A stretch of DNA of 64,000 bases from Occultella gossypii (lineage in GTDB: Bacteria > Actinomycetota > Actinomycetes > Actinomycetales > Beutenbergiaceae), in contig NZ_JAGSHT010000012.1 in NCBI RefSeq assembly GCF_019947135.1, positions 186,001-250,000 of the forward strand. Direction: 5' to 3'. Made by a program: the position numbers and the translations under genes. This document shows, piece after piece, positions 37,213-63,732 of this stretch. Position 1 is the first letter of the stretch. Each line of letters starts with the position of its first letter. Under the pieces are notes generated by a model. The model did no database searches, was not told where the DNA came from, and saw only the letters and a list, made by a program, of their open reading frames with translations.

Positions 37213-37524
37213 TCAGCCGCCGATGATGACCGTTGGGCAGCCGGGCCCGGGGGCGATGGGTTGCCCGTGCATGGTCAGGTCGCCCAGGCGGGCGGCGGGG
37301 AAGTTGCCGATCATCACGGTCGCCGAGCCCATGGCGATCCCGTTCGGCGCGGGGGAGACGCAGGCGACCCCGCCGGGAAGGTTGTTCGCGACGGCCGCGG
37401 GCAGGCCGCCGATGAGCACCGTCGGCACCGTGGCGGCCGGCGTGATCGGGCCGCCCACGTGCGGCTTCGGGCCGTCAAAGAGGGAGCAGAGGGCCATGTC
37501 ACCGGCCCGTAGCGCGGGTCCCAT
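37213..37524 (-). CDS. PAAR-domain tip protein of the injection system (Pvc10-like)
   Basis: A 103-residue PAAR protein that caps the spike and may carry cargo. The repeated PAAR pattern is clear: GDMALCSLFDGPKPHVGGPITPAATVPTVLIGGLPAAVANN, then ATVMIGNFPAARLGDLTMHGQPIAPGPGCPTVIIGG, with the His and Cys residues that bind the tip metal. A GTG two codons upstream (37530) is an alternative start. It is transcribed away from the main structural operon, 17 nt after the membrane-protein gene, an unusual place for a tip gene. Confidence 0.9.
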   Translation of the reverse strand: MGPALRAGDMALCSLFDGPKPHVGGPITPAATVPTVLIGGLPAAVANNLPGGVACVSPAPNGIAMGSATVMIGNFPAARLGDLTMHGQPIAPGPGCPTVIIGG

Positions 37525-37541
37525 GGGCACGGCGCCGCCGC

Positions 37542-38867
37542 CTAGGGTGCGGCCGGCGGGGCGGGCGTGGCGTTCGTGCCGCCGATCAGGACGGCAGTGT
37601 CGCAGGTGGTCGGCGGGTCGACGGCGGGCGGCGCCCCCACCTGACTGCACGTGACCGTCACGACCAGAGTTTCGCCGTCGGCCACCACGAGCGGAGACTG
37701 GAAGTGGAAGTCGACCGTGCGGAAGTTCTCCAGGGCGAGGTCGAAGACGATCGTCTCCCCGTGCCGCACGACCACCCGGCCGAAGTCGCCCTGCGGGTTC
37801 GAGAAGACCCAGTCGGTGACCCGGAGCGTGGTGTCCTCCGGCACGGTGTGCGAGGTCGTGGCCGTGGCGCCCTGCCCGGTGTCGACCTGGAGCCGGAGGC
37901 TCGTCGGGACCACGATCTCGGAACCGCCGAGGATGTTCGTGACCGCGTCCTCGACCTCGACGACGCGCTCCTCGGCCGCGGCGGCGGAGTTCCCGGCCGT
38001 CTCCGCGGCGGTCTGCGCACCGGCGGCGGCCTCCTGGGCCTGTACCGCTGCCTGCTGGGCCTGTTCGGCGGCCTCGACCGCCTCCTGGCGTTCCTCGGCG
38101 ACGGCGGCCTGCGCGGCGGACTCGATGGTCGGGCGCAGCACGGTGAACCAGAGCAGCGCCAGCAGGGCGAGCAGCGCCAGCAGGGCGAGCAGCGCCTTGA
38201 AGAACCACTTCGGCAGCATCGCCGTCTGTACGTGTGAGCCGTCCAGGGCCACCGGGGTGGTGGCATCCGCGGCGGCGGACACGACGAACGGGTGGGTCAC
38301 GTCCGGCCCGCGCCAGAACGACTTGACCGGCCTGACGTGTACCTTCGCGAAGGCTGCCTGACCCGGCTCGACCACCAGTTGCGGCGGCTGGATCTTGAAC
38401 GTCAGCTGGGACTTGTCGTCGGCGCCGGCGAGATTCACCGTGACCGGCACGTTGCCCCGGTTGTCGACGGCGACCTGATGCGTCGCGCCGCGGCGCCCGT
38501 GTGAGGAGCGGGGCACCAGCTCGGCGGTCGTGTCCAGGTACGGCAGCACCTCGACGACGCCCTCGGGGATCACCGCCTCCTCGGGGTGCTCCATCGGCAC
38601 CACGCGCACGCCGAAGTCGAACGAGCCGGCCGGGACCGTTCCGTCCTTCGGTGGGCGGAACGTGATGGAGGCCGTGGTGGAGGTGTCCGGGTAGAGCCCG
38701 TCGATCTGGGCGGGCTCCACGGTCGCCCAGGCGCCGGGGGTGCCGAGCACCTCGATCCGGTAGCCCTCCACGATCGTGCCGGTGTTGCGGATGCTCAGCG
38801 GCACCACGGCCTCCGAGCCGGCGGCCAGCCGCAGGCTCGTGGAGTCGAGTTTCGCCAAGGTCGTCAT
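37542..38867 (-). CDS. Single-pass membrane protein with Ig-like and coiled-coil regions
   Basis: A 441-residue protein without signal peptide. Residues about 1-215 form two Ig/NEW3-like beta domains (LRLAAGSEAVVPLSIRNTGTIVEGYRIEVLG; HQVAVDNRGNVPVTVNLAG). A Leu/Ala helix (about 220-242) follows basic LPKWFFK, so the N-terminus should be cytoplasmic and the C-terminus outside. Next comes an Ala/Glu/Gln coiled coil (about 248-315) and a beta-rich end (about 325-430). I infer a membrane receptor or anchor for the contractile particle, because it shares a transcript with the PAAR gene. No experimental homologue is known to me. Confidence 0.7.
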   Translation of the reverse strand: MTTLAKLDSTSLRLAAGSEAVVPLSIRNTGTIVEGYRIEVLGTPGAWATVEPAQIDGLYPDTSTTASITFRPPKDGTVPAGSFDFGVRVVPMEHPEEAVIPEGVVEVLPYLDTTAELVPRSSHGRRGATHQVAVDNRGNVPVTVNLAGADDKSQLTFKIQPPQLVVEPGQAAFAKVHVRPVKSFWRGPDVTHPFVVSAAADATTPVALDGSHVQTAMLPKWFFKALLALLALLALLALLWFTVLRPTIESAAQAAVAEERQEAVEAAEQAQQAAVQAQEAAAGAQTAAETAGNSAAAAEERVVEVEDAVTNILGGSEIVVPTSLRLQVDTGQGATATTSHTVPEDTTLRVTDWVFSNPQGDFGRVVVRHGETIVFDLALENFRTVDFHFQSPLVVADGETLVVTVTCSQVGAPPAVDPPTTCDTAVLIGGTNATPAPPAAP

Positions 38868-38984
38868 GTCGTCGACGGTATTCCCGCAGGGGCTTCGCGG
38901 GACCGCCCGGGAGGCGGGCCATGCGGGCAACGCTGCTGCCCGGTGAGTCAGCGTTGATTGCACGATCAGTGCGCTGAGCACACT

Positions 38985-38998
38985 GGTGCCCGAGCACC
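38985..38998. promoter_or_regulatory. Cluster motif copy F (between divergent units)
   Basis: ggtgcccgagcacc: arms GGTGC/GCACC around ccga. It lies between the divergent membrane-protein and LuxR genes and shares GGTGCCCGA with other gaps in the cluster. Confidence 0.4.
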
Positions 38999-39021
38999 CG
39001 GGATCAGAGATCGGGTGGGGG

Positions 39022-39660
39022 ATGGGACAACTGGACATGGAACGCGTAGAAGTGTGGGTGAGTGCCCGCGATCCGATCTCGGAGGCGGGCGTGGTCAGTG
39101 CGCTCCGGCCTCGACCCGAGGTTCGGGTCCTGCGGTCGGATGAGGCGGATGACGCGCGGGTGGTCGTGGTCGTCACGGACGCCGTCGACGAGGAGGCGCT
39201 CCGGACGATCCGGGTGGTGCACCGTCGTGGACTGAGCAGGCCGGTCCTGGTGGCCGGCACCCTGGACGGCTCGGACGTGGTCACGTCGGTGGAGGCCGGA
39301 GCAGTGGGTCTGGTGCGTCGCAGCGAGGCGACGCCGGACCGGCTGATCCAGGTGATCACCGGCGCCGCTGTCGGGGAGGGCAGCGTGCCGCCGGATCTGC
39401 TCGGGCGGCTGCTCGATCAGGTGGGGACGCTGCAACGGCAGGTGCTGCGTCCCCGGGGGCTGACCTTCACCGGTCTGGCGACCCGGGAGATCGAGGTGCT
39501 GCGGTTGATCGCGGACGGGTTGGACACGGCGGAGATCGCTCAGCACCTGGCCTACTCCGAGCGCACCGTGAAGAACGTGCTGCACGACGTCACGACCCGG
39601 CTCCAGCTACGGAACCGGTCGCACGCCGTCGCCTATGCGCTGCGCGAAGGCCTGATCTAG
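39022..39660 (+). CDS. LuxR/NarL-type response-regulator-like protein
   Basis: A 212-residue regulator. The C-terminal HTH (about 148-212) is clear: LATREIEVLRLIADGLDTAEIAQHLAYSERTVKNVLHDVTTRLQLRNRSHAVAYALREGLI. The N-terminal domain looks like a receiver fold (VEVWVSARDPISEAGVVSAL; VVVVVTDAV) but lacks the usual acidic pair at its start, so it may not be phosphorylated. No sensor kinase is adjacent. As the first gene on the plus strand of the cluster it is the natural candidate for controlling it. ATG 39037 is an alternative start. Confidence 0.85.
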   Translation: MGQLDMERVEVWVSARDPISEAGVVSALRPRPEVRVLRSDEADDARVVVVVTDAVDEEALRTIRVVHRRGLSRPVLVAGTLDGSDVVTSVEAGAVGLVRRSEATPDRLIQVITGAAVGEGSVPPDLLGRLLDQVGTLQRQVLRPRGLTFTGLATREIEVLRLIADGLDTAEIAQHLAYSERTVKNVLHDVTTRLQLRNRSHAVAYALREGLI

Positions 39661-39823: not shown

Positions 39824-42800
39824 ATGGCACGCACGTTGGCGGTGACCGCGGCGCTGGGGCTGCTCGCCCCGGCCGCCGTCGCGGCCGTGCCGATGCCCCC
39901 GATCACCGCGGACCTGCCGGCGCCGGACGCGGCGTCCACGCGGGTCGCCTTCACCGAGCGTGGTGGTGGGCTCGGCCAGGCGGCGTGGAGCGTCGGCACG
40001 GCCGGGAGCCTGCCCGACTCGGACGTGGAGCGCCTGTCCGGGCGCGAGGGCGACAGCGAGTATTCGGTGGTCTACGTACCGTCGGCCGAGCAGGCCGTCT
40101 CGTCCTTCGTGCGCACCGACGAGTCCGGCGTCGGTGACGTGTACGTCCAGGTGGTGGGCACCGACGCACCCGTGCGAATCACCTGTGACGACGCGCGCGT
40201 CTCGCATCCGGTGGTCTCCCCGAACGGTCAACTGGTCGCGTACGCGACCAGCGTGGACGACGGGCCGTGGCGGATTGCGGTGGCGTCCATCGGGGATCCA
40301 CCGTGCGAGGGCGGCATGGTCGAGGAGGTCCCGGGCGGTGACGGGGACGATCTATGGCCATCGTGGTTGCCCAGCCTCGAGTCCAACGACCTCGTGTTCT
40401 CCTCCACCCGGGACGACCCGCTCGGCGACATCTACCTGGCCAACCTCGGCTCGAAGCCTGCGTTGTGGCGGATCACGTCCGATCCGGCCGCGGACACCCA
40501 GCCATCGGTCGGGGCTGTCGGGAACGGCGTCGCACTTGCATTTGCCACCACCCGGTACCGAGCCGATGGCTCAGTCGCCCTGGTGGATCTCTTCGCCGCC
40601 TCACCGGAGGAACTCGAGGACCAGGGGGAGATCTTCGACCCCTGGTCGCCATTCTCCTTCGCTGGCGTCCAGGGCAGCGAACCCGCTTGGGGCCTGACAC
40701 AAGGGGAATGGCCATCGGACGCGGTGCTCCTGATCACCAGCACCAGCCTCGGACCGTACGGGGACATCATCGACGCCTCGGTCAGTTACGGCGGCGAGGG
40801 GGTCGGCGCCCAGCGGTTCGACTTCGAGTACCAGGGGTGGACGTTCGGCGATCCCCTTGTGCCCAACGCGGAGTCGCATGCAGCCTGGACGGATCCACCG
40901 GCGGGTGGCTCGGGGCCGCCGGAGATCGATACCGTCGTGACAGCGTCGATGGGCTCAGCCGACTCGAACCTCGGCGACGTGGACGCGCGCACAGGGAGCG
41001 GTCGACGGGTGTCGACGGCGTCGATCCCGGACGCGGACGATGCCGACCCGGCGTACTCGCCGGACGGCTCCTGGCTCGTGTTCAGTTCGGAGGCGGTCAC
41101 CGAGGACGGCCGCACCGGGAGCCGTCTCATGCTCGCAGCGGCGGACGGCAGCGTGACGTACCCGCTCAACTACGCCTGGGATCCCGGCGAGCCCGTACCG
41201 CCAGGGACGGAGTTCCCAGGAGACCTTCGGGTTGCCCAGGACATCAACCCGACGTGGTCACCCGACGGCACCCGGATCGCATTCGAACGCCTGCGCCATC
41301 TCGGGGAGGAGTACGACCGGCAGGTCCTCGTGGCCGACTTCGTCCCCGGCGCGGGTGGTCCGGGGATCCCCGTGGCGACGACCACCCCGGTCACGGATAC
41401 TTCCGCGGAGTGGTACGTCGGTGAGCCCGACTGGTCGCCGGACGGCCGGTACCTGGTGGGTACCAGTGGAATGGGGCTCGTCCTGATCGATCCAGAGACC
41501 ACCGACCCCGCGAACTCGGCGATACCGCTCCTCCACTACCCGGAGGGCTGCCTGCCGGAATCGTGTTCACCCTCCACGATCGAGGGCCGGGCGCCGACGT
41601 GGTCACCGGACGGGACCACGATCGCTGTCGCCGATGCCTACATCCCGACGAACATGTCCAGCGCGGCGATCGCGGCGGTCTCGGTGCCGTTCGATGTGCG
41701 TGGCGGCATCGCGCTCATCACGTTGGATCCGGAGGACCCAACCGCGCCGTTCATCGACGCCGTCCCTGTTGTTGGGTTCGACGACGAGGGCGTCCCAACC
41801 GCGAGCCGCTTGGAACTGTCGGCGGCGACCGATCCCGCCTGGTCCTCGGACGGCTCCGAGATCTACCTCGCCGGTAAGCCCGCCGGGCTCGCGGACGACT
41901 GGGGAATCTACGCGGTCCGCCCAGACGGTGAGGGCCTGCGCGAAGTCGCCCAGGGTCCCGGACCGGAGACGGAGCCGACCGTCCAGCCAGACGTGGACCT
42001 GTCCCTGACGATGGCGGCGAGCCCGAACGTGGTGCCGGTCGGCGGCGCCAGCGAGCTCACCCTCACGGTGCGCAACGAGGGCCAACGCCCCGTCGGCACC
42101 TACCGGGTGCTGCTGGAGGTGCCGGCGGAGCTGCAGTTGGGTGAGCCTCCGCCCGGCTGCACGCTCGACGACCTGATCCTCACGTGTCTGCCGACCGAGC
42201 CGATCGGCCCGCTCGGCGTGAGCATCCTGACCCTCACCGTGCTCGGGCGCGTGCCGGGCACCACCGCGGAGGTCACCGCCGTGGTGCTGCCCGGCGGACC
42301 GGACCGGGACGCCGGCAACAACCGCGCCGCAACCTCGATCACCATCACTGGCAGCAGCGACCAGCAGACCGACCTCGACCTGACCCTCGCGGTGAGTCCC
42401 CCGACCGGGTACGTCGGTGGCCAACCGATGATCGCCAGGATCACGGTCACGAACAACGGGCCCGCGGCGATCACGAGTGCCACCGTCACGACCGGGTTCC
42501 CGGCCGGTGTGGTCCCGACCGCCCTGAACATCTCGTCCACGGCCCCGGACGATCTCGCGCCACCGGTGGACCTGACGGACCCCGCGACCGTGGCGTGCCT
42601 GACCGGAGCCGGGTCCTGCCCGATCGGCCCGCTCCTGATCGGCGACTCCGTCGTGCTGGAGGCGAGTCTGCTCCCGGTCGGGCCCGAAGGGACCGGCCAG
42701 CTCACCGCAACCGTGGCGCTGGAGGCGACCGCGGCGCATGTGGACGTGGACCCCACGAACGATGCGGCCACTGCCGTCGTGAGTGTCCTTCAGCCGGAGA

Positions 42801-43099
42801 TCCGGTTGCTGCCGTCGGTGGCCCGCCCCGGTGACGCGGTCCTGGCCTACGGTGAGGACTTCCCGCCGGGGCAGGCGGTGATGCTGACCTGGAGCCAGGG
42901 CATCACGGTCAATCCGGGACCGTACGTGGTCAGTGCGGAGGGCCGGCTGGTCATCCCGCTGGTGCTCGTCTCCCGCGACCTCCTCGGGGAGCGGGACGTC
43001 ATCGCGACCTCGCCGGCCGGCGCGTTCGGCGAGGTCCGCGGCCCGCTGCTGGTGGTCGCACGGTCCATCCAGGCACCCAACTTCCTGTTCAGGGGCTGA
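39824..43099 (+). CDS. Secreted TolB-like beta-propeller protein with DUF11 repeats
   Basis: A 1091-residue exported protein. A short signal peptide (MARTLAVTAALGLLAPAAVA) leads to many PD40 propeller repeats across about 40-710 (for example INPTWSPDGTRIAFER, EPDWSPDGRYLVG, APTWSPDGTTIAVAD, DPAWSSDGSEIYLAG). Two CARDB/DUF11-type Ig modules follow (about 725-990; LTVRNEGQRPVGTYRVLLEVP; ITVTNNGPAAITSATV), then an IPT-like end. There is no sortase motif. It starts the long plus-strand operon of the injection system, yet would lie outside the cytoplasm, so it may form a cell-surface or target-binding part. The job is inferred. Confidence 0.8.
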   Translation: MARTLAVTAALGLLAPAAVAAVPMPPITADLPAPDAASTRVAFTERGGGLGQAAWSVGTAGSLPDSDVERLSGREGDSEYSVVYVPSAEQAVSSFVRTDESGVGDVYVQVVGTDAPVRITCDDARVSHPVVSPNGQLVAYATSVDDGPWRIAVASIGDPPCEGGMVEEVPGGDGDDLWPSWLPSLESNDLVFSSTRDDPLGDIYLANLGSKPALWRITSDPAADTQPSVGAVGNGVALAFATTRYRADGSVALVDLFAASPEELEDQGEIFDPWSPFSFAGVQGSEPAWGLTQGEWPSDAVLLITSTSLGPYGDIIDASVSYGGEGVGAQRFDFEYQGWTFGDPLVPNAESHAAWTDPPAGGSGPPEIDTVVTASMGSADSNLGDVDARTGSGRRVSTASIPDADDADPAYSPDGSWLVFSSEAVTEDGRTGSRLMLAAADGSVTYPLNYAWDPGEPVPPGTEFPGDLRVAQDINPTWSPDGTRIAFERLRHLGEEYDRQVLVADFVPGAGGPGIPVATTTPVTDTSAEWYVGEPDWSPDGRYLVGTSGMGLVLIDPETTDPANSAIPLLHYPEGCLPESCSPSTIEGRAPTWSPDGTTIAVADAYIPTNMSSAAIAAVSVPFDVRGGIALITLDPEDPTAPFIDAVPVVGFDDEGVPTASRLELSAATDPAWSSDGSEIYLAGKPAGLADDWGIYAVRPDGEGLREVAQGPGPETEPTVQPDVDLSLTMAASPNVVPVGGASELTLTVRNEGQRPVGTYRVLLEVPAELQLGEPPPGCTLDDLILTCLPTEPIGPLGVSILTLTVLGRVPGTTAEVTAVVLPGGPDRDAGNNRAATSITITGSSDQQTDLDLTLAVSPPTGYVGGQPMIARITVTNNGPAAITSATVTTGFPAGVVPTALNISSTAPDDLAPPVDLTDPATVACLTGAGSCPIGPLLIGDSVVLEASLLPVGPEGTGQLTATVALEATAAHVDVDPTNDAATAVVSVLQPEIRLLPSVARPGDAVLAYGEDFPPGQAVMLTWSQGITVNPGPYVVSAEGRLVIPLVLVSRDLLGERDVIATSPAGAFGEVRGPLLVVARSIQAPNFLFRG

Positions 43100-43102
43100 G
43101 GC

Positions 43103-43783
43103 ATGATCACCGAGGTGGACACCGCCCTGCGCGCCATGGTGCGTGCGGCGCTCGGCGGCGCCGAGGCGGACGTGGTCCTCGACGCGCCGACGACCGAGTG
43201 GGCAGCGCGGCGCAACGCCCCGACGGTCAACCTCTACCTCTACGACCTGCGCGAGGACCTCCGCCGGCGGACGAGAGGAATCATCGAGACGCGGACGCCG
43301 GAAGGGGTCACCCGGTCCCACCCGCCGCGGTACTTCCGCATGTCCTACCTCGTCACGGCCTGGACGCAGCGGCCCGAGGACGAGCACCGGCTGCTCGAGG
43401 TGGTGCTCGCCCACCTCGTCCAGCACGAGGTCCTCCCGGACCATGAACTGCCGCTCCCGCCGGGTGCGGACCCGCTCATCCAGCTGCTCGTCGGTCTGCC
43501 GCCCCCGGAGGACCGTGGCTTCGCCGACGTGTGGAGCGCGCTCGGTGGGGAGCTGAAGCCGTCGATCGACGTGGTCGTGGTGGCGCCGCTCGCGGTACAG
43601 CCGGGCGAGGCGGCCGGCCCGCCCGTGCGCGAACCGCTCGTCCTCGATGCGCGGGACGTGCTGCCCGACGGCGGAGCGGACGTCGGGCGGAGCAAGCACA
43701 GTCCGCCGCCGCGCACCGAGGCGACCGCGGCTGCCGGCGCGCAGGAATCGTCGCCGAAGGCCAGGGCGCGGCGGCGCCGGTGA
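43103..43783 (+). CDS. DUF4255 (Pvc16-like) tail-terminator protein
   Basis: A 226-residue protein of the DUF4255 family, which caps the upper end of the sheath-tube in contractile injection systems. Family marks: EVDTALRAMVRAALGG at the start, PTVNLYLYDLREDLRRR, PPRYFRMSYLVTAWTQRPEDEHRLLEVVLAHL. The last 45 residues are low in complexity and basic. It follows the TolB-like gene by 3 nt and its stop overlaps the ATPase start (GTGA). Confidence 0.92.
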   Translation: MITEVDTALRAMVRAALGGAEADVVLDAPTTEWAARRNAPTVNLYLYDLREDLRRRTRGIIETRTPEGVTRSHPPRYFRMSYLVTAWTQRPEDEHRLLEVVLAHLVQHEVLPDHELPLPPGADPLIQLLVGLPPPEDRGFADVWSALGGELKPSIDVVVVAPLAVQPGEAAGPPVREPLVLDARDVLPDGGADVGRSKHSPPPRTEATAAAGAQESSPKARARRRR

Positions 43784-46017
43784 CGACGACCCAGGACCCG
43801 GCCCGGGTCGAGTCGCCGCGGGCATCAGGCCCGACGGCCGATCCTGAACGGCTCCCGGCGGCGGGCGCGGGTGGGCCGGGCGACCGACCAGAGGGGGAGG
43901 CCAGCATCACGCACCTGCTCGGTCGACTCGGGGTGATCGAGGAGCGGATCCGCGGCCTCGTGACGCAGCGGCGGGCCCATGACCCGCAGCCCGACGATCC
44001 GTTCCGGGGGCTGTACCTCAGCGACGAGGCGGTCGAGGCGATTCTCGAGCGCCGCCCGGAACTGCCGCTCTCGACCACGGCATCCGCGCGCCTGACGGAC
44101 TGCGAGCGTACGGCGGACACTGCGCAACGGTCCGGGGCTCGGCTGCGCCTACGGGAGGTTGCGGACCGGTTCGGCCTCGATGCCCTCGACGTCGACCTGC
44201 TCCTGCTCGCGCTGGCCGCCGACGTCGACCCTCGGTTCGGGCAGCTCTTCGGCTACCTCAACGATGACGTGACCCGGCGGCGGCCGACCGTTGCGACGGC
44301 GCTGACGCTGTGTGGCCGGCCGCTCGGGTCCGGAGCGGCCCGGGCGCATCTCGTGCACGGACCGCTGATCAGCGGACGCCTGGTGCAGGTTGACGACGCC
44401 GACCAGCCGCTGCCGGTGCGGACCCTGCGGATACCGGATCGGGTGGCCGCTCATCTGCTCGGCGACGACAACCCGGACCCGGCGCTCGTCGGCGCCCTGG
44501 TGTCGGCCCCGGATGCCGTGTGGGGGGACGTGGGACCGGTGGCCCGAGCGCTCGCCGCGGGTGTGGACCTCATCCACGTGCGCGAGGCGGCCACGGGTTC
44601 GGGGCGGCTGCTCGCCATCGGTGCGCTGCGCGAGCTCGGTCGGGACGCCGTCGTGCTCGACCTGCAGCACCTGGCCGAAGGTCCGGAGCCGGCCGAACTC
44701 GTGGACCTGGCGGTGCGGGAGGCGATGCTCGGCGGGGCCGGACTGGTGGCCGGTCCCGTGGAGGCGCTCGGCGAGGTGCCGTCGGCGCGAATCGCGCTCA
44801 CCGGCCTGGCCGGGCGCCGCGGCCTGCCGGTACTGCTCGTCGGTACCGTCCCGTGGGACCCGGCGTGGGCGCCCCGGACGCCGTTGCTGGTCGATGCGCC
44901 GGCCAGTACCGATGCCGAACGTGCCCAGTTGTGGGCGCTCGCCCTGTCCGAACCGGGTGCTCCGGTGAACGCCGACGCTCCATCGGTCGCAGGCGACGCC
45001 GAGCCGGACGCCGACGCCACGTTCGAGGAGGAGGCGCTGGATGTCGCGGCAGCCACCTCGCAGTACCGGCTGAATCCCGAACAGGTGGTCCGGGCCGCGC
45101 GGGCGGCCCAGGTCCAGGCGCGGCTCGACGGCGGCCGGCTCGCGGCCGAGCACCTGCGCCGGGGTGCCCGGGCGGAGAACGGCACCGCGCTCGACCGGCT
45201 CGCCCGCCGGATCGAACCGGCCGTCGGCTGGGAGGACCTGGTGCTACCGTCGGCCACCCTGACCGGGCTGCGGGAACTGAGCCTGCGCGCGCGTCACCGC
45301 GAGCGCGTCCTCGGCGACTGGCGGATGCGGCCCGGTGGTGGCCGCGGACACGGGGTGGCCGCGCTGTTCGCCGGGGACTCCGGCACCGGGAAGACGATGT
45401 CCGCCGAGGTCGTCGCCGGGGACCTCGGCCTGGAGCTGTACGTCGTGGACCTGGCCACCGTGGTGGACAAGTACATCGGCGAGACGGAGAAGAACCTCGA
45501 ACGGATCTTCGCCGGCGCGGCCCGGATGAACGCCGTGCTGCTGTTCGACGAGGCGGACGCCGTCTTCGGCAAGCGTTCCGAGGTCAAGGACGCCCACGAC
45601 CGGTACGCGAACGTCGAGAGCGCCTACCTGCTCCAGCGCATCGAGAGCTTCGACGGCCTGCTCATCCTGACCACGAACCTGCGTGCCAACATCGACGACG
45701 CGTTCACCCGACGGCTCGACGTGCTCGTGGATTTCCCCCTGCCGGACCCCACCCACCGGCTCGCGCTCTGGGACCGCTGCCTCGGCACCGTGGTGCCCCG
45801 GGCGGACGACCTCGACCTAGCCTTCTGCGCGGACGCGTTCGCGCTCGCGGGCGGGGCCATCCGGTCCTCGGCGGTCACCGCCGCCTACCTCGCCGCCGCC
45901 GACGGCGCACCGCTGGGGATGGGCCATCTCGTCACCGCCGTCCAGCGTGAGTACCGCAAGATGGGGCGCCTGAGCCTACCCGCCGAGTTCGGTAGGTACT
46001 GGGACCTCATCGGCTGA
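43780..46017 (+). CDS. AAA+ ATPase of the injection system (Pvc15-like)
   Basis: A 745-residue protein. The N-terminal half carries the winged-helix/ATPase-like region usual for this family (LTDCERTADTAQRSGARLRLREVADRFGLDALDVDLLLLALAADVDPRFGQLFGYLND). The C-terminal AAA+ core has Walker A GDSGTGKT (532-539), Walker B VLLFDEADAVFGKRSEV (Asp590/Glu591) and a sensor region (GLLILTTNLRANIDDAFTRRLDVLVDFPLPD). Its role in particle assembly is conserved but its mechanism is unsettled. It overlaps the DUF4255 gene by 4 nt. A 199-nt gap follows, suggesting a new promoter. Confidence 0.94.
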   Translation: MTTTQDPARVESPRASGPTADPERLPAAGAGGPGDRPEGEASITHLLGRLGVIEERIRGLVTQRRAHDPQPDDPFRGLYLSDEAVEAILERRPELPLSTTASARLTDCERTADTAQRSGARLRLREVADRFGLDALDVDLLLLALAADVDPRFGQLFGYLNDDVTRRRPTVATALTLCGRPLGSGAARAHLVHGPLISGRLVQVDDADQPLPVRTLRIPDRVAAHLLGDDNPDPALVGALVSAPDAVWGDVGPVARALAAGVDLIHVREAATGSGRLLAIGALRELGRDAVVLDLQHLAEGPEPAELVDLAVREAMLGGAGLVAGPVEALGEVPSARIALTGLAGRRGLPVLLVGTVPWDPAWAPRTPLLVDAPASTDAERAQLWALALSEPGAPVNADAPSVAGDAEPDADATFEEEALDVAAATSQYRLNPEQVVRAARAAQVQARLDGGRLAAEHLRRGARAENGTALDRLARRIEPAVGWEDLVLPSATLTGLRELSLRARHRERVLGDWRMRPGGGRGHGVAALFAGDSGTGKTMSAEVVAGDLGLELYVVDLATVVDKYIGETEKNLERIFAGAARMNAVLLFDEADAVFGKRSEVKDAHDRYANVESAYLLQRIESFDGLLILTTNLRANIDDAFTRRLDVLVDFPLPDPTHRLALWDRCLGTVVPRADDLDLAFCADAFALAGGAIRSSAVTAAYLAAADGAPLGMGHLVTAVQREYRKMGRLSLPAEFGRYWDLIG

Positions 46018-56437: not shown

Positions 56438-56438
56438 C

Positions 56439-58388
56439 ATGCTGCCCACCCCGAACCTCGACGACCGCCGCTTCCAGGACCTCGTCGACGACGCCAAACG
56501 GATGGTCCAACGGCACAACCCGGAGTGGACGGACCACAACGTGTCCGACCCCGGCGTGACCCTCATCGAGACGGTCGCGTTCATGACCGACGAGCTGTTC
56601 TACCGGCTCAACCGGGTCCCCGACCGGCTCTACCTCACGTTCCTCGACCTGCTCGGCATGAGCCTGCTCCCACCCACGGCTGCCACGGCGGACGCCACGT
56701 TCTGGCTCTCCGCCGAGCAGCCGGAGACGGTCGTGGTGCCGGAGGCGTTCGAGGTCTCGACGCTGCGTACCGAGGACGACCCGGCCACGAGGTTCGCGAC
56801 CGTCCGCCCGCTGGAGGTGCCGCCGCGTCGCCTCGCGCATGTGCTGACCCACGGTGCCGAGGGCGAACCGCTCTCGCGCGACGATGACCTGCTCGGCGGG
56901 GACGGGTTCGACGTCTTCTCCGGGAAGCCGGTCGAGGACGACGTGCTTCTCCTCGGCCTCGACGAGCCGGCGCCGTCGTGTGCCGTGGTGCTGCGCTTCG
57001 AGTGCGACGTGCAGGGCGTGGGCGTCGACCCGCGGAACCCGCCGCTGGTCTGGGAGGCGTGGGACGGTCGGCGCTGGGTCGGGTGCGACGTGGACAGTGA
57101 CGGGACCGGCGGGCTGAACCGGGCCGGGGACGTCGTGGTGCATGTCCCCGAGACCCACACGGCCTCGGTCATCGGGCGGATCCGTGCCGGCTGGTTGCGG
57201 TGCCGGGTGATCCCCGCGGACGAGGGCTATCCGTTCTACAGCGCGTCCCCGACGATGAGTGCCGCGAGCGCCTTCACGATCGGTGGCACGGTTGCGGTGG
57301 TCCACGCGGAGACCATCGACGAGGAGGTCCTCGGCCTGTCCGAGGGCACGCCCGCGCAGGTGTTCCCGCTCGAGCACCGCCCGGTCGTGGCGGGCGGCCC
57401 GCCGATCGAGCTCGATGTGGCCGACGGCGGTGGCTGGCAACGCTGGACGGAGGTGGACTCGTTCGCCGGTGCCGGCCCCGACGACCACGTCTTCTGGGTC
57501 GACCGGGCGCAGGGGGCGGTGCACCTGGGTCCGGCGGTGCGTCAGGTGGACGGTTCGCTGCGTGGGTACGGTGCGGTGCCGCCCAAGGGCGCGCCGCTGC
57601 GGGTCCGCAGCTACCGCACCGGGGGCGGCCCGGCCGGCAACGTCGGCGCCAGGACGATCGGCGTGATGCGTGCCACGGTCCCGTTCGTGGACCGGGTCGA
57701 GAACCGGCGCCCGGCGCTCGGTGGAGTCGCGGCGGAGTCGGTGGCCGAGGCACGCCTACGTGGACCGCTCGCGCTGCGGACCCGGGACCGGGCGATCACG
57801 GCCGAGGACTACGAACAGCTCGCCCGCGCTGCGGCGCCCGGCATCGCGAGGGTCCGGTGCGTGCCCGCCGTGGGTGACGACGATGCCGGTGGCGTGCGCG
57901 TGCTCGTGGTGCCCTCGGCAGTTCCGGACGACGAGGGCCAGCTCCGGTTCGAGGACATGGTGCCCTCCACCGATGACCTTGCCGCCGTGGCCGCCTACCT
58001 CGACGACCGGCGGCCCGTGGGCGTGCGCGTGCTCGTGGAGCCACCGTTCTATCAGGGGGTCACCGTGGTCGCCCGGCTGAGTCCGCGACCACGCACGACG
58101 GCGCACGTGCTCGAGCGGGACGCCGTCCGGGCCCTGAACAGGTACTTCGACCCGCTCACCGGAGGGCTCGACGGCCAGGGGTGGCCGTTCGGGAGGCCGG
58201 TCCAGGCGGGCGAGGTGTACGCCGTGCTGCAGCGGCTGCCCGGCACGGAGCTGGTCGAGGACGTCAAGCTGTTCGCGGCGGACCCGATCACGTCCCGCCG
58301 TGGGGAGCCGGTGCAGCGGATCGAGCTGGACCAGCACGCGTTGGCGTTCTCCTACCGTCACCAGGTCCGCGTCACGGCGGGGGACTGA
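56439..58388 (+). CDS. Baseplate J-like protein (gp6-type, Pvc11)
   Basis: A 649-residue main wedge protein of the baseplate. The start LPTPNLDDRRFQDLVDDAKRMVQRHNPEWTDHNVSDPGVTLIETVAFMTDELFYRLNRVPDRLYL is typical for eCIS. The baseplate J core lies in the last third (LRTRDRAITAEDYEQLARAAAPGIARVRCVP). I chose ATG 56439, 1 nt after the gp25 stop; an in-frame ATG at 56418 would add seven residues and overlap gp25. Confidence 0.95.
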   Translation: MLPTPNLDDRRFQDLVDDAKRMVQRHNPEWTDHNVSDPGVTLIETVAFMTDELFYRLNRVPDRLYLTFLDLLGMSLLPPTAATADATFWLSAEQPETVVVPEAFEVSTLRTEDDPATRFATVRPLEVPPRRLAHVLTHGAEGEPLSRDDDLLGGDGFDVFSGKPVEDDVLLLGLDEPAPSCAVVLRFECDVQGVGVDPRNPPLVWEAWDGRRWVGCDVDSDGTGGLNRAGDVVVHVPETHTASVIGRIRAGWLRCRVIPADEGYPFYSASPTMSAASAFTIGGTVAVVHAETIDEEVLGLSEGTPAQVFPLEHRPVVAGGPPIELDVADGGGWQRWTEVDSFAGAGPDDHVFWVDRAQGAVHLGPAVRQVDGSLRGYGAVPPKGAPLRVRSYRTGGGPAGNVGARTIGVMRATVPFVDRVENRRPALGGVAAESVAEARLRGPLALRTRDRAITAEDYEQLARAAAPGIARVRCVPAVGDDDAGGVRVLVVPSAVPDDEGQLRFEDMVPSTDDLAAVAAYLDDRRPVGVRVLVEPPFYQGVTVVARLSPRPRTTAHVLERDAVRALNRYFDPLTGGLDGQGWPFGRPVQAGEVYAVLQRLPGTELVEDVKLFAADPITSRRGEPVQRIELDQHALAFSYRHQVRVTAGD

Positions 58389-58389: not shown

Positions 58390-58932
58390 ATGCGCGGCAT
58401 GATCCCAGGGCTCGTCCCGGTGGTTCCGATCGGCTCACGGCTGCCCGGCGTCTACGGCGACGACGAGACGATGCAGCTGTTCGCCCGGGCGTTGGACGAG
58501 GTGCTCGCGCCGACGTTCACCACGCTGGACTCGCTGTGGACCTACATCGACCCGCACGTCGCGCCGGAGGACTTCCTGGACTGGCTCGCGGACTGGGTGG
58601 GGGTGGAGGTCGACGACTCCTGGTCCCTCGAGCGTAAGCGCGAGATCGTCGCGCAGGCCGCCCAGATCCACCGCCGCCGCGGCACCGTGGCCGGAGTGGA
58701 ACTGGCCGTGCGGCTCGTCACCGGTGGCGAGGTCACCGTCACGGATTCCGGCGGCACCATCTGGTCGCGAACCCCCGGCGCGGACCTGCCCGGGCGGGCG
58801 CCGGCGGAGCTGACGGTGACGGTGGAGGTACCCGACGTCGACGCCGTGGACCTGCGCCGGGTGGATCGCGTGGTGCGTGACGTCAAACCTGCGCACGTGC
58901 CACACGTCGTGGAGATCGTGGAGGTGGCCTGA
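58390..58932 (+). CDS. Tail protein I-like baseplate protein (gp7-type, Pvc12)
   Basis: A 180-residue wedge protein. It has SRLPGVYGDDETMQLFARALDEVLAPTFTTLDSLWTYIDPHVAPEDFLDWLADWVGVEVDDSWSLERKREIVAQAAQIHRRRGTVAGVELAVRLVTG, the phage tail protein I signature. It is shorter than Pvc12 of Photorhabdus (over 900 residues). In PVC a tail-fibre gene follows; here a zinc-ribbon membrane protein follows instead, overlapping by one base. Confidence 0.95.
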   Translation: MRGMIPGLVPVVPIGSRLPGVYGDDETMQLFARALDEVLAPTFTTLDSLWTYIDPHVAPEDFLDWLADWVGVEVDDSWSLERKREIVAQAAQIHRRRGTVAGVELAVRLVTGGEVTVTDSGGTIWSRTPGADLPGRAPAELTVTVEVPDVDAVDLRRVDRVVRDVKPAHVPHVVEIVEVA

Positions 58933-60638
58933 TGGTGATCTGTCCCGAATGCGGCACCCGCAACGAGGTCGGGGAGCAGTTCTGTGGTGGCTGCGGCACC
59001 TACCTGGAGTGGGAGGATCCCGCGGCTGCCGAGCCCGAAGCCGGACTCGAGGAGCCCGAGCTCGAACTCGAACTCGAGCAGCCCGCGCCGGAACCGGAGC
59101 CCGCACCGGAACCGGCGCCTGCTCCTCCGCCGAGACCTCTGCCGGTTCCCGACCCCGAGCCGGGACCTGTGCCGGTTCCCGAACCGGAGCCCGTCCCCGA
59201 GCCGGCGCCGCGGGCCGAGCGGCGCACCGCCGTCGAGTCGCCTCCCCGGACCGGGCAGCACGCTGCGGCGGCCACCGCCGCTACCGCCGAGACGGCGCCG
59301 GCAACGCAGCCGGACACGGCTGCCACCGCCGAGATGGCGCCGGTGACCCAACCCGCCGGCGAGTCCACGGCGAACGCGCCGACCGAGGCTGCGCCATCGG
59401 GCAGTGGCGAGGCCGCGCCGTCGGGCGCCAAGGAGGCCGAGCCGTCGAGCTCCAACCAGGCTGCGCCGTCGAACGCTGGCGAGGCTGCGCCGTCCAGCAC
59501 TGGCGAGGCCGCGGCTTCGGGCCACGATGACGGTGCGTCGTCGGGCAGCGGCGAGGTTGCGCCGTCGGGCGTCGCGGAGGTCCCGGCCCGCCGGGCCGAC
59601 CAGCCGCACCCGAACGGCACCCCGACCCGGGAGACCATCGAGCAGGCGAAGCCGGCGGCGGCGATCGCGCCCGCGCTCGTCGCGCCTCCGGCGCAGCGCC
59701 GACGCCGAACCACCAGGTCCGCAGGCGAACCGACCTCAGCCGCCGGCGGGCAACGCCCCGGCGCGCCCCGCCCGACCGCCGCCGGCGCGGACGAGCCGTC
59801 CGCGCGGACGCCGGGTGCCCCGATGGCGGTACGGCCGGGGGCCGCGAAACCCCGCCCGGCGCCCCGACCCGTCCCCGAGGACGAGCCACCGCCCGCGCCG
59901 GGTGACCTCATCTGCGGCAGCTGCGGCACCGGGAACGTGCCCACCCGCAAGTTCTGCCGCCGGTGCGGTACCAGTCTCGCCGAGGCGAAGGTGCAGCCGA
60001 GCCGGTCCTGGTGGCGGCGACTCCTGCGGCCCGACGCCAAGCCCGGGCCGGTGGCCGGCACCCGGCCCAAGACGCGACGGCGCCGGTTCCCGACGAAGCT
60101 CGTCAGCACCGTCGTCATCCTCGGCCTGCTCACCGCCGTCGGGCTCTACTTCCGGCCCGAGCTCGAGCGCGCCTACGAGGCCGTGCTGGACCGTGCCCAG
60201 GGCAACGCCGCCGTGAACCCGACCGGATTCACGGCCTCCAGTGAAGGCGCCGAGACACCCGTGACGAACGTGGGCGACGGCACCTTCGACCGGGCCTGGA
60301 CACCCGCGGCGCCGGGAGCCGGCGCGGGCGAGTGGGTGGACCTGACGTTCGCTCAGCCGTTCCGGCTGGTCCGGATCCTGATCACGCCGGGCGCGTCCAC
60401 CGTGCAGGAGGACTTCCTGGCCGCGGACCGGCCACAGACCCTGACCGTCACCACGACCACGTCCACCGGGGCCCAGGAGAGCGAGGAGATCGTCCTCGAG
60501 GACCGGGCGGGGGCGCAGAGCGTCGAGCTCGTGACGGAGAACGTGGTCGCCGTCCGGCTGACCATCGTGGACACGTTCGCGCCTAGCCCGGAGTCGTTCG
60601 TGGCACTGGCAGAGGTAGAGTTCCGAGGACGCGAGTAG
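58932..60638 (+). CDS. Zinc-ribbon, single-pass membrane protein with outside discoidin-like domain
   Basis: A 568-residue protein. Two zinc ribbons are visible: CPECGTRNEVGEQFCGGCGTY (3-24) and CGSCGTGNVPTRKFCRRCGTS (about 327-348), joined by a Pro/Glu/Ala/Ser-rich linker. After a basic stretch a membrane helix (about 389-411; LVSTVVILGLLTAVGLYF) leads to an outside beta domain (about 425-568; TPVTNVGDGTFDRAWTPAAP) of discoidin/galactose-binding type. Topology is N-in by the positive-inside rule. As last gene of the operon it is the best candidate for docking the cytoplasmic particle at the membrane; Streptomyces CIS uses a membrane protein called CisA for this, but homology must be tested. 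Its end overlaps the convergent regulator gene by 56 nt. Confidence 0.8.
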   Translation: MVICPECGTRNEVGEQFCGGCGTYLEWEDPAAAEPEAGLEEPELELELEQPAPEPEPAPEPAPAPPPRPLPVPDPEPGPVPVPEPEPVPEPAPRAERRTAVESPPRTGQHAAAATAATAETAPATQPDTAATAEMAPVTQPAGESTANAPTEAAPSGSGEAAPSGAKEAEPSSSNQAAPSNAGEAAPSSTGEAAASGHDDGASSGSGEVAPSGVAEVPARRADQPHPNGTPTRETIEQAKPAAAIAPALVAPPAQRRRRTTRSAGEPTSAAGGQRPGAPRPTAAGADEPSARTPGAPMAVRPGAAKPRPAPRPVPEDEPPPAPGDLICGSCGTGNVPTRKFCRRCGTSLAEAKVQPSRSWWRRLLRPDAKPGPVAGTRPKTRRRRFPTKLVSTVVILGLLTAVGLYFRPELERAYEAVLDRAQGNAAVNPTGFTASSEGAETPVTNVGDGTFDRAWTPAAPGAGAGEWVDLTFAQPFRLVRILITPGASTVQEDFLAADRPQTLTVTTTTSTGAQESEEIVLEDRAGAQSVELVTENVVAVRLTIVDTFAPSPESFVALAEVEFRGRE

Positions 60639-63600
60639 TGCCCGCGGGGACGCCGAGGGTGGCGAGCATCCGGGCGTAGTCACGTTGTGCGCGCTGGGCC
60701 TCGGCGGCTGCGCCCGAACGGTGCAGGGCGTCGATCAGCAGTTGCCAGGACGCGTCGCGGAAGGTGTTGAGCTCGATACTGCGGTTGGCCGCGGAGACAG
60801 CCGCCTCGAGGTTCCCGGCGGCGAGTTCCAGAGCGCCGAGTGTCGCTGCGGCCTCCGCGGCCTGACTGCGGTAGCGGTCCCTGGGGCCGGTCACCCACTC
60901 GGCCGGGCCGTCCTCCGGGAGCAGGTCGTCGGCGTACAGGTCGAGGGCCCGCCGCAGCGCCGCGGCCTGCGCGGCCGGGTCGGTGCGGCGGGTCTTGTTC
61001 GCGGTCCGGAGCGCGGCCTCGAACTCGACGACGTCGCAGCGTGAGGAGCTGCGCAGGTGCAGCGCATAGGCCTCGCCGTCCCGCACCAACAGGGTGCTGC
61101 TACGGGCCGGGCGACCCGGTTCCAGGCAGCGCCGGATCGTGGACACGCTCACCTGGAGGTTGTGCATCGCGGCGGCCGGGTCCAGGTCGCGCCAGAGCGC
61201 TTCGGCCAGTCGTTCGCGGTGCACCGGGCGACCGGCGCTGAGGGCGAGGATGCGCAGCACGGCACGGGCCCGGGGACGCATCTGACCCAGGTCGACGGCG
61301 CGGCCACGCACCGTGATCGAGAACGCACCGAAGCAGCGCACGTCGAGCTCGGCCACGACGTGTGATGGCGGTGCGGACCGGTCCGGCGGGCCGGCCGATG
61401 CACCCACGCCCGGCGCACCGACACTCGGCGCGGGCTCAGCGGCGTGGCGGAGCCTGGACTTGGCGTCCTCGGTGGGGTAGGCCTCGACGGCCGCGGGAGA
61501 CAGCCACTCCCACGGCCGGGCGAGCAGTCCTTCCGCCTCGGCCGTCGACGTCGCCAGGTGCATCATCTCGGCGGCGTGGGCACTGTCGGCGCCGGCGCTG
61601 CGGGCCAGCGTCGCGTACGCGACCGCGAGGGCGCCGGGCACCGCGAGGGTGCGGGCGAAGGACTCCGCCGCCATCGCGTCGGCCGCCGCATCCGGGAGCC
61701 GGGCGGCGGTGGCGGTGAGCGCGTACAGGGACCGTGCCCACGCCTCGAGCGACGTGGCGCCGAGGGTCCGGAAGCGCAGACCGAGATCGTCCCACTCCTG
61801 CGGATGCACGCCACCGGCGCGTAGGCAGGACAGCGCCAGTGACCAAGCGATGATCGCCGCGCCCCAGGCGTCGCCGATCCCGTCGCAATGGCGGGTCAAC
61901 TGCTGGGCGCGGCGATGGGACCGCTCGTCGCCGTCGAAACTGACGATCGCGCCGTGCGCGAGCCGGGCCAGCCACGTGTGTCCCGCCTGTTCGGCGGCCA
62001 CGTATACCCGGTCGATCGCGGCGAGGGTCGGCAGTGTTGGGCGGGTGGAGGCCATCGAGACCTCCACCAGCCGGGCGGCGAGCGCCATCTCGTCCGGGGC
62101 CTCCGGGTCGGACGCGCACCGGTGCAGTACTTCTGTCGCCGTCCGCTGATCCCCGGCGATCAGCAGGCTGATGCCCTCGGCGAGTGCCGCGCCGGGGCCG
62201 CGTTGCCGGGCCGCTCGCCGGGCGGCCTGCAACGGGTCGCGCCTGCTTGCCTCGCGGACGCAGTGCTCCCACCCATCGGAACGATCCCGGGCCGGCACCG
62301 TCGACCAGACTCCGGCGCCTGCCGAGATCAGCCGGGTCGCGGCACGTTCCGCGGGGCTCGTGGAGTCGCTCAGATCGTTCAGGAGATTGCGCACCCGGTC
62401 GAACCGTCCCTCGAGGTGCGCGGCGCGGGCGCGCGCGATGGTGCGCCAGGGCGGGGGACCGATCCGGTCCACGGGCAGCGGGTCGGTCCACAGCCGACCC
62501 TGGATGTCGACGGATCCGGGGCCGATCTCCTCGAGGAGGTCGGTGAGGTGTCGCCAGTCCTCGGCCAGGCAGAGCGCTCGTAGCGCCTCGTGGGTGGCGC
62601 CCTCGGTGCGCAGGATCGCGGCGGCTCCGGCGAACCAGGCGGAGGTCCGCACCGGACCGAGCTCGGCACGGGCGGCCGAGATCAGGTGGCGGCGCAGCAC
62701 ACGGTGCATCCGGAAGCGGCCGTTGCCCACGTCGATCAGCAGCGGCACGGAACGAGCCATGGCCCGAAGGTCCTCATGCCCGGTGCTGGTCCCTCGGTGG
62801 GCGTCCACGCGGGCGGCGCTGAGGTTCTCGAACACGGCCACGTCCGACAGGAAGTCGCGCTGGTGCGCGGGGAGCCCACGAAGCACGGTCGCGTCCAGGT
62901 AGCCGGCCGCGTAGTCGGCGTGCATCGCCAGGGCATGCACCGCGCGTCGGCGCTCAGCGGGGAGGCGGCCCTCGATGGAACGTTGGAACAGCCGCACCGC
63001 GGCGGCCCAGCCCTCCGTCTCCCGCGTGATCACGACCAGGTCGTCGAGCGGGAGCGGCTCGTCCCCGGCCGAGCGCATCAGGGCGTCGGTGTCCCAGATG
63101 CGGAACCGCAGATCGCGCCCGCTGAGCACGACCGGCGGAGGGATCTCCGAGCGGGTCAGGTTCAGGGTGGGCATGGACCGGGACCCGAGCAGGATCCTCA
63201 GACGGTCACCGGTGCCGAGGATGAGGGTCTCCAGCTCGGCCTCGGCCGGGGTGCCGACGATGTGGTGGACGTCGTCGAGGACGAGGAGCAGTGGCGCCGG
63301 GAGCAGGTCGACGAGGTGGAGTACGTCGTGGGCGTTGGCCGGTTCGGTGACGAGGTGTCCGCTGGCGCCTTCGCCCGCCCGGTTCGCGGGCCCGGCCACC
63401 GGGCCCGGCTCGGGTCCGGCCAGCGCGCTGGACTGGGGTGCGCCGGTCATCCCGGCGCTGCGGACGGCGACCTCGAGGGTGCGGATCAGCGCGCGCGGGT
63501 CCGCATCGGCAAGGGTCAGCCGGCACCAGGCCACGAGTCCGCCCTGGCCTCGGGCCCAGCGCGCCATCAGGGTGGTCTTGCCTGTTCCCGGCCATGCCAC

Positions 63601-63732
63601 GACGAGCCCGAGGCGCGTCGCCCTGATCCCGTCGAGGGCTCGCAGCAGCGCCGGCCGCGGCACTCCGCCGGCCGTGGGGATGCGCGACATCGAGGCCTGT
63701 GCCAGGTCATCGAGTCGGACGCCTTCGGCCAC
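60583..63732 (-). CDS. ATPase-BTAD transcriptional regulator (SARP/LAL-like)
   Basis: A 1049-residue regulator with reversed order compared with classic AfsR. The N-terminus has a STAND-type ATPase with P-loop VVAWPGTGKTTLMARWARGQGG (Lys52), a Walker B-like LLLVLDDVHHIVG (about 150) and a helical TPR-like middle (about 380-770). The C-terminus has an OmpR-type winged helix (about 793-885; RCFGAFSITVRGRAVDLGQMRPRARAVLRILALS) and a BTAD domain (about 890-1045; DLLPEDGPAEWVTGPRDRYRSQAAEAAATLGALELAAGNLEAAVSAANRSIELNTFRDASWQLLIDAL). The GTG start has the site gggagg. Being convergent with, and overlapping, the last eCIS gene, it probably controls the cluster. Confidence 0.88.
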   Translation of the reverse strand: MAEGVRLDDLAQASMSRIPTAGGVPRPALLRALDGIRATRLGLVVAWPGTGKTTLMARWARGQGGLVAWCRLTLADADPRALIRTLEVAVRSAGMTGAPQSSALAGPEPGPVAGPANRAGEGASGHLVTEPANAHDVLHLVDLLPAPLLLVLDDVHHIVGTPAEAELETLILGTGDRLRILLGSRSMPTLNLTRSEIPPPVVLSGRDLRFRIWDTDALMRSAGDEPLPLDDLVVITRETEGWAAAVRLFQRSIEGRLPAERRRAVHALAMHADYAAGYLDATVLRGLPAHQRDFLSDVAVFENLSAARVDAHRGTSTGHEDLRAMARSVPLLIDVGNGRFRMHRVLRRHLISAARAELGPVRTSAWFAGAAAILRTEGATHEALRALCLAEDWRHLTDLLEEIGPGSVDIQGRLWTDPLPVDRIGPPPWRTIARARAAHLEGRFDRVRNLLNDLSDSTSPAERAATRLISAGAGVWSTVPARDRSDGWEHCVREASRRDPLQAARRAARQRGPGAALAEGISLLIAGDQRTATEVLHRCASDPEAPDEMALAARLVEVSMASTRPTLPTLAAIDRVYVAAEQAGHTWLARLAHGAIVSFDGDERSHRRAQQLTRHCDGIGDAWGAAIIAWSLALSCLRAGGVHPQEWDDLGLRFRTLGATSLEAWARSLYALTATAARLPDAAADAMAAESFARTLAVPGALAVAYATLARSAGADSAHAAEMMHLATSTAEAEGLLARPWEWLSPAAVEAYPTEDAKSRLRHAAEPAPSVGAPGVGASAGPPDRSAPPSHVVAELDVRCFGAFSITVRGRAVDLGQMRPRARAVLRILALSAGRPVHRERLAEALWRDLDPAAAMHNLQVSVSTIRRCLEPGRPARSSTLLVRDGEAYALHLRSSSRCDVVEFEAALRTANKTRRTDPAAQAAALRRALDLYADDLLPEDGPAEWVTGPRDRYRSQAAEAAATLGALELAAGNLEAAVSAANRSIELNTFRDASWQLLIDALHRSGAAAEAQRAQRDYARMLATLGVPAGTTRVLGTLPLPVPRTTPG

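Follow-up and report, generated by a model that had tools for sequence, protein, structure and literature searches.

The gene cluster

The window analysed here is a stretch of 64,000 nucleotides (nt) of Occultella gossypii DNA (contig NZ_JAGSHT010000012.1, positions 186,001 to 250,000), taken from a host genome of 5.84 Mb, and positions 37213-63732 within it hold a gene cluster for a contractile injection system (CIS). The cluster comprises 20 genes, from a PAAR gene to a BTAD regulator gene, all of which were scanned with Pfam and whose positions were refined from the open reading frame (ORF) list of the window (Table 1). A first-pass annotation, made from the letters of the DNA, had listed PAAR, DUF4255, ATPase, DUF4157, sheath, two tubes, an assembly protein, DUF6760, hub, spike, gp25, gpJ and gpI in tight overlapping order as a complete extracellular CIS (eCIS). 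Profile searches recovered each of these parts, the assembly protein being a protein of 149 amino acids (aa) that matches the tail assembly chaperone family PHROG_508, and the gene map has the short overlaps. The listed genes are open frames. Beyond that list the cluster holds a CisA homologue, an effector homologue, a 1059-aa protein filling the slot between DUF6760 and the tube initiator (the slot protein), a LuxR-type regulator, a PD40/DUF11 protein and the BTAD regulator. Phage_sheath_1 and DUF4157 each have a single match in the genome.

In its genes and their order the cluster is an unexceptional, intact type IId CIS, a kind already known. Judged from its genes alone, it very probably encodes a complete cytoplasmic CIS of this Streptomyces kind, placed between rplI and MATE-dnaB. 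In a PDB sequence search the best solved relative of the sheath was the Streptomyces coelicolor CIS sheath (8bky), and that of gpJ was the baseplate J protein of the same system (9gtp_1K; E values in Table 1). The further type IId features present are the AAA ATPase with the Pvc16 cap, a CisA homologue 3' of the baseplate genes and an effector homologue of the Sco4256-4258 type. For an S. coelicolor-type reference we took genome G465, which scored 1476.9 bits against 9gtp_1K over 647 residues; because two, not three, effector-type genes were seen in the stretch read, this may be a strain other than A3(2).

The CisA homologue combines a pair of zinc ribbons with a disordered linker, a single membrane segment and a discoidin-like outer domain. 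It aligns with the CisA-position protein of G465, whose zinc ribbons, membrane segment and outer domain are laid out in the same way, PF25302 and zinc ribbons being found in both, and the ORF at that position in G465 has 468 aa, equal to the published length of CisA. CisA, a membrane adaptor, is described as required for contraction and cell death and as sitting at the tail-fibre position (Casu et al. 2025, PMC12237407). The effector homologue adjoins the PAAR gene, 11 bases apart on the same strand, and consists of an Ig-like N-terminal half, one membrane segment, an Ala-rich stalk and a C-terminus of its own, which is also present in four related genomes. Its likeness to the ricin-bearing protein of G465 extends over 262 aa including the membrane segment (34% identity, E 7e-51), and the ricin-type C-terminus, by Pfam of both, belongs to the G465 protein and is not common to the two. 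Since the G465 match fits the published description of Sco4257/4258 as ricin-bearing proteins with one membrane segment (PMC10066040), we read the window protein as an S. coelicolor-type effector homologue. PHROG also gave weak matches for it, at E 0.005 to 1, among them Zot-like, spanin and tail fibre families; these lie on the membrane and stalk part and were not used.

Some points weigh against a cytoplasmic system of this kind. The effector C-terminus differs from the ricin lectin of Sco4257/4258, and Occultella is not known to be mycelial. Cytoplasmic CIS have been linked to mycelial or filamentous bacteria (PMC10020575, in the passages available). A released eCIS acting on other cells, like the antifeeding prophage (AFP) or Photorhabdus virulence cassette (PVC), would have the same core parts; however, Pfam found no tail fibre family among the 20 cluster proteins (Afp13 itself not being used as a query), the fibre position is taken by the CisA homologue, and among solved structures the nearest is that of S. 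coelicolor, a cytoplasmic CIS, so we consider a released particle improbable. A prophage tail in decay and a type VI secretion system (T6SS) would also have the sheath and baseplate families, but both can practically be dismissed: the AAA ATPase, the Pvc16 cap and DUF4157 mark an eCIS, the 20 proteins include no capsid, terminase, T6SS membrane-complex or ClpV family by Pfam (for the last two the search was confined to these proteins), the frames are open and the sheath is 92-100% identical across the genus. The eCIS identification of the first-pass annotation is thereby upheld over a prophage or type VI assignment. Its guess that the particle acts from inside the cell is likewise supported by the CisA homologue at the fibre position, the S. 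coelicolor-type effector homologue and the lack of a fibre gene, which together make such action probable.

Table 1. Genes of the CIS cluster, with their positions in the window and the evidence for each.
Product	Position	Strand	Evidence
PAAR tip protein	37213..37530	-	Pfam PF05488 2.8e-15; 85-96% identity in genus, 86-87% in G067/G137
Putative effector homologue	37542..38867	-	34% identity/262 aa, E 7e-51 vs G465 effector-position protein; hydropathy peak at residue 235
LuxR-type regulator	38986..39660	+	Pfam GerE 7.1e-13; near cap gene in other loci
Putative secreted PD40 beta-propeller and DUF11 protein	39824..43099	+	PD40 5.7e-22, DUF11 6.3e-14; N-terminal hydrophobic segment
Tail terminator/cap, Cis16-type, Pvc16_N (DUF4255)	43103..43783	+	Pfam 6.6e-41
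AAA+ ATPase, Cis15-type	43780..46017	+	Pfam AAA 4.6e-22, winged helix domain (WHD) 6.8e-26
DUF4157 (eCIS_core) protein, HELTH motif, C-terminal 14-residue repeats (VQREAEEEELQGAF)	46217..47002	+	Pfam 1.3e-33
Contractile sheath, Cis2-type	47123..48688	+	Pfam 2.4e-25; PDB 8bky E 3.5e-218
Inner tube 1, Cis1a-type	48702..49148	+	Pfam gp19 9e-26
Tail assembly chaperone homologue, 149 aa, C-terminal zinc-ribbon-like motif	49148..49597	+	PHROG_508 1.2e-4 alone
DUF6760 small protein	49594..49752	+	Pfam 1.2e-14
Slot protein (1059 aa) with seven [VLI]QR motifs and a disorder-prone composition; possible tape measure or scaffold in the tube lumen	49756..52935	+	Position, motif-blind test, conserved termini
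Tube initiator, Cis1b-type	52949..53386	+	Pfam gp19 3e-26
Hub with LysM, Cis7-type	53394..54191	+	CIS_tube 6.7e-24; P2 GpU 5.7e-5, below its curated cut-off
VgrG-type spike, Cis8-type	54178..56013	+	Phage_base_V 3.1e-24
gp25-type baseplate wedge, Cis9-type	56027..56437	+	Pfam 9.1e-26
gpJ baseplate wedge, Cis11-type	56418..58388	+	Baseplate_J 4.6e-18; PDB 9gtp_1K E 1.8e-223
gpI baseplate wedge, Cis12-type	58390..58932	+	Tail_P2_I 4.2e-22
CisA homologue	58932..60638	+	E 6e-32 vs 468-aa CisA-position protein of G465; Pfam/NCBIfam
BTAD/AAA transcriptional regulator, right border	60583..63732	-	BTAD 2.6e-14; same place in G063, G013

The slot protein and its chaperone

The gene order places a large protein of no recognised family two genes downstream of a chaperone homologue. 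In the family of the 149-aa protein, 38 of 39 members match the tail assembly chaperones of PHROG_508 (E up to 0.01, best 7.3e-7), the PHROG to which gp41 of phage Mu belongs (6e-49), and weaker matches lead to the chaperone families PF10109 (2/39) and PF23746 (1/39). Alignment of the chaperone family against the single Mu gp41 sequence with hhalign gave nothing significant, and the same was true of the controls, gp46 and the tube. The chaperone gene overlaps the DUF6760 gene by 4 bases. A tblastn search of phages with the 149-aa protein returned 56 records at E 0.1 to 9, nearly all of the 30 listed being annotated tail assembly chaperones; these were not counted as support because, in the region fetched for the first of them, the match lies on the strand opposite to the chaperone genes. 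The PHROG match does not depend on them.

The slot protein itself matches no family in Pfam, NCBIfam or PHROG (0 PHROG families at E up to 1), and its place is constant. We compared 90 CIS loci including that of the window, of which 66 had both flanking markers in the DNA fetched, and in all 66 the gap from DUF6760 to the tube initiator holds an ORF of at least 560 aa. With the duplicates L117 and L092 dropped and the longest ORF taken blind to motif, [VLI]QR stood above shuffled expectation (p<0.01) in 62 of 64 loci, with a total of 551 against 18.5 and with L145 and L150 failing. Other proteins of the same loci served as controls, observed against expected counts being 0 and 13.6 for the sheath, 18 and 22.8 for VgrG, 8 and 7.7 for the hub, 0 and 5.0 for the chaperone, and 2 and 11.3 for CisA. 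The motif is also raised across loci in gpJ (113 vs 38.7) and the AAA ATPase (30 vs 5.0). Among all tripeptides VQR is the most enriched in slot proteins (404 vs 8.2 expected, in 64 proteins chosen by motif).

The slot proteins over 500 aa, 62 in number, range from 560 to 1357 aa, and the number of [VLI]QR motifs does not follow their length (rho 0.17). Within Streptomyces, S. netropsis and S. olivoreticuli have slot proteins of 560 aa, against 1353 aa in S. ardesiacus and 1357 aa in S. hyderabadensis. Their termini are conserved, with GWAxLPPLQRTLG near the start and DELAxRLxxPLxRRLKAELLLDRERRG at the end (consensus of 18 sequences), and their composition is more disorder-prone than that of the structural proteins. 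Six [VLI]QR motifs also occur in the window's DUF4157 protein, and ORFs at the DUF4157 place hold 45 against 12 expected (25 ORFs from 14 genomes, many probably in the wrong frame).

The slot extends beyond type IId. In seven of the eight Chloroflexota regions fetched, the eighth, G754, being of another type, the gap from tube initiator to hub holds a protein of 602-1824 aa, and its C-terminus is the same motif as that of the type IId slot proteins (hhalign probability 93.9, E 1.5e-7, 28 columns); a 10-residue stretch tried as the control for this alignment was a poor one and was not used. Five of seven loci with more distant sheaths fill the equivalent gap with a long, disordered ORF whose end is similar; the frames of G091 are all short and look wrong, and G107 has none. 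Pfam found a DUF4157 domain in each of the six distant slot proteins scanned (three Roseiflexus-type, G665, G678 and G079; E 2.3e-5 to 5.6e-17). As a separate observation, Chloroflexota loci carry an ORF of 62-80 aa before the tube initiator (L267 11034-11228; also L268, L270, L272, L273 and L274), in which a helix resembles the slot C-terminus by eye.

Is the slot protein a tape measure?

We tentatively propose that the slot protein is the missing tape measure of type IId CIS, a ruler of a new, disordered and chain-like class that has a phage-type chaperone and no recognisable likeness to known tape-measure families, an identification that we hold at slightly short of an even chance. The genes of phage Mu run sheath, tube, chaperone, tape measure, gp43, hub, V, gp46, gp47, gp48 and fibre, and those of phage P2 run E, T, U, D. 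Because the slot gene follows the chaperone homologue and precedes the hub, collinear with Mu, it occupies the tape-measure position. We also count in favour that a slot protein with the same C-terminal motif recurs in Chloroflexota. Phage rulers span roughly 1.5 Å per residue, and the slot protein of G465 has 1378 aa. The S. coelicolor particles analysed are all of one length, with 60 tube layers (Casu 2025, PMC12237407). At a rise of 38.5 Å this makes a tube of ~231 nm and 1.68 Å per residue of the G465 slot protein, which we count in favour of a tape measure because it is near the phage value. The contracted sheath is ~140 nm long in S. coelicolor, and for R. castenholzii it is given as 86.7 ± 7.0 nm. 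Roseiflexus-type slot proteins of 872, 909 and 975 aa (three genomes) predict 89-99 nm by proportion, a weak comparison that has two points, concerns another Roseiflexus species than the one measured and ignores end structures (61 layers x 17.22 Å account for only 105 of 140 nm). Finally, loss of Sle1/Sle2 in S. lividans gave no apparent particle defect (PMC13277306), which argues that Sle1 is not the ruler.

In published work the tape measure gene has been stated to be absent (Casu 2023, PMC10066040; Nagakubo 2023, PMC10286715; Casu 2025, PMC12237407), other proteins have been treated as tape-measure-related effectors (the Sle1 paper of 2026, PMC13277306; the S. davawensis paper, PMC11126660), and no paper describing the slot protein as a tape measure was found in a search that left subscription journals mostly outside. 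Several observations count against this proposal. The proteins of unknown function named in S. coelicolor particles are sco4242, sco4256 and sco4251, the slot gene being unnamed in the available passages (Vladimirov et al., PMC10020575); by gene count we infer sco4251 to be the chaperone and either sco4249 or sco4250 to be the slot gene. In the S. coelicolor effector mutant, where the slot gene is intact, the tube lumens were for the most part empty (PMC10066040); a flexible slot chain might be invisible there, yet we count this against a tape measure. The slot protein matches no tape-measure family among the PHROGs at the threshold given above, and no membrane-like or hydrophobic segment occurs in any of the 62 slot proteins over 500 aa. 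Members of the genus differ by 12% in the length of the slot protein (1059, 1129 and 1184 aa) although their sheaths are 92-98% identical, so that particle length would have to vary too if the protein were a ruler. The distant slot proteins are not enriched in VQR (0 or 1 VQR; in Chloroflexota 0-2 [VLI]QR), from which it follows that the motif is not essential to the slot, and the DUF4157 inside them fits an effector or cargo role equally.

It is possible, if rather doubtful, that the slot protein instead serves as a cargo scaffold, its VQR motifs, shared with the DUF4157 protein, docking cargo or chaperones at the tube initiator. The prominence of VQR among the tripeptides, the [VLI]QR motifs of DUF4157 proteins, the independence of motif number and length, and the DUF4157 domain within the slot protein of other lineages all speak for such a role, and the S. 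lividans DUF4157 protein is reported to interact potentially with the tube initiator (PMC13277306). However, a tape measure accounts at least equally well for the conserved termini, the upstream chaperone and the place ahead of the hub, and the distant slot proteins do without VQR. The two roles are mutually compatible. A further idea considered is that the DUF4157 metalloprotease might cut at VQR.

The slot protein is unlikely to be an effector of the kind of Tme, a protein of S. davawensis that belongs to another CIS group. Tme is large, ~70% disordered, DUF4157-bearing and encoded just upstream of the baseplate genes (PMC11126660), and the slot proteins of other lineages likewise contain DUF4157; yet the 1059-aa protein has no toxin or enzyme family, the slot proteins lack membrane-like segments, and their conserved C-terminus is a short helix-like motif rather than a catalytic domain.

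Locus, borders and relatives

To the left of the cluster lie ssb-, rpsR- and rplI-like genes, named from their translations, and to the right, past the BTAD regulator, a MATE efflux gene and then dnaB (Pfam). The first-pass annotation had described a clean insertion straight after the terminator of the rplI operon, with no integrase or transposase. The site is indeed clean, at the right border as well, and the Pfam scan of the 20 genes matched no integrase or transposase family; the supposed terminator, inspected by eye, is an extended inverted repeat, rich in G+C and lacking a T run, which a pattern scan did not count. Comparison of the rplI flank in relatives, a check proposed at the same time, found the CIS block with rplI on its 5' side in all four genomes of the genus that were searched, in each of which a sheath was found, and MATE-dnaB on its 3' side in the three whose right flank was fetched, the contig of G189 stopping inside the cluster. 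In three of ten same-family genomes with the rplI region read (G031, G119 and G206), rplI, one small ORF, MATE and dnaB follow one another with no CIS between, MATE and dnaB having been identified by Pfam in G031 only; G119 carries a different CIS elsewhere in its genome. In G203, MATE and dnaB are present and ~5 kb of other genes follow rplI, and in the remaining six of the ten, for which only first residues were shown, MATE was not recognised directly after rplI. Because these contents differ, we regard the interval between rplI and MATE-dnaB as a variable place. The Occultella aeris genome has 91.3% DNA identity to the host genome over 14.1 kb. On the question of horizontal transfer, sheath identity, 92-100% within the genus, is 79-80% in another family (G067, G137) and 47-48% in same-family copies outside the genus.

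The PD40/DUF11 protein, with 60-66% identity within the genus, diverges much faster than the structural genes, and in G021 and G054 the match is confined to its last ~110 residues. In-frame 42-nt repeats coding VQREAEEEELQGAF lie at the end of the DUF4157 gene (46796-47002). The gap from DUF4157 to the sheath has no Sle1-like gene in the window and five relatives (G189, G063, G013, G067 and G137), and it is ~5 kb in G021 and ~7 kb in G054; DUF4157 is reversed in G177 and G121. BTAD matches lie near the end of many other CIS loci.

Outside the cluster, the dnaB just right of the window (L032 1636-4266) contains an intein with a LAGLIDADG domain (Intein_splicing 1.7e-24), none being found in dnaB of G031, and a large gene at 32730-35240, penicillin-binding-protein-like by eye, has a long C-terminal TEEPTEEPT repeat.

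A model and its meaning

We propose a model that draws these parts together. Particles would assemble free in the cytoplasm, and, less surely, the slot protein may sit in the tube during assembly and help to set its length. The spike end would be loaded with the effector, together with DUF4157 and PAAR. A signal that CisA senses through its outer domain may then recruit the baseplate to the inner face of the membrane, where the sheath would fire and deliver the membrane-anchored effector, and this delivery would kill or remodel the producing cell itself.

Type IId CIS are widespread, with a gpJ match (E up to 1e-200) in 138 of 295 Streptomyces genomes. Several Streptomyces gpJ matches (G472, G403, G480, G456 and others) hold one or two TGA codons, which may reflect broken copies, assembly errors or match ends. 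The most interesting part of the cluster is the slot protein common to the type IId family. S. coelicolor particles are uniform in length despite a tape measure called absent, and a conserved gene at the tape-measure place makes the question testable. If the tape-measure proposal is true, that uniform length would be explained and the CIS tube of the window would measure ~180 nm; furthermore ruler, DUF4157 and cargo would form one evolving luminal module, split here into separate genes and joined in the distant slot proteins and, by position, in Tme. A complete firing set outside Streptomyces, with CisA and effector homologues, further tests the link between cytoplasmic CIS and a mycelial way of life.

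Comparison with known systems

The closest known system is the S. coelicolor CIS (CIS-Sc; type IId; PDB 8bky, 9gtp, 9gts), with which the window shares sheath, tubes, baseplate, cap, AAA ATPase, DUF4157 protein and CisA, as well as the N-terminus and membrane segment of the effector and a slot protein between DUF6760 and Cis1b. In contrast to CIS-Sc, the window has a single effector, whose C-terminus is not of the ricin type, its cluster includes a PD40/DUF11 gene and lacks an Sle1-like protein between DUF4157 and sheath, and its slot protein has 1059 aa, not the 1378 aa of G465; PAAR is present in the window, whereas PAAR and PD40 matches were not found in the G465 cluster, which is otherwise closely similar in content. 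The Tme-type CIS of Streptomyces davawensis likewise encodes, immediately ahead of its baseplate genes, a large protein that is mostly disordered, but Tme unites DUF4157, membrane helices and a nuclease in one chain, whereas in the window DUF4157 is a separate gene and the slot protein shows neither membrane helices nor nuclease. The Chloroflexota CIS (Roseiflexus and others) resemble the window in having a chaperone-like protein, a slot protein with the same C-terminal motif and the hub in order, and differ in that the slot gene follows the tube initiator, that DUF4157 lies inside the slot protein in the five proteins scanned, and that VQR is not enriched there. Finally, the tail operon of phage Mu has the same gene order as the window, which adds DUF6760 between chaperone and slot and a second tube gene between slot and hub; the slot protein matches no PHROG family, and CisA stands at the place that the fibre holds in Mu.

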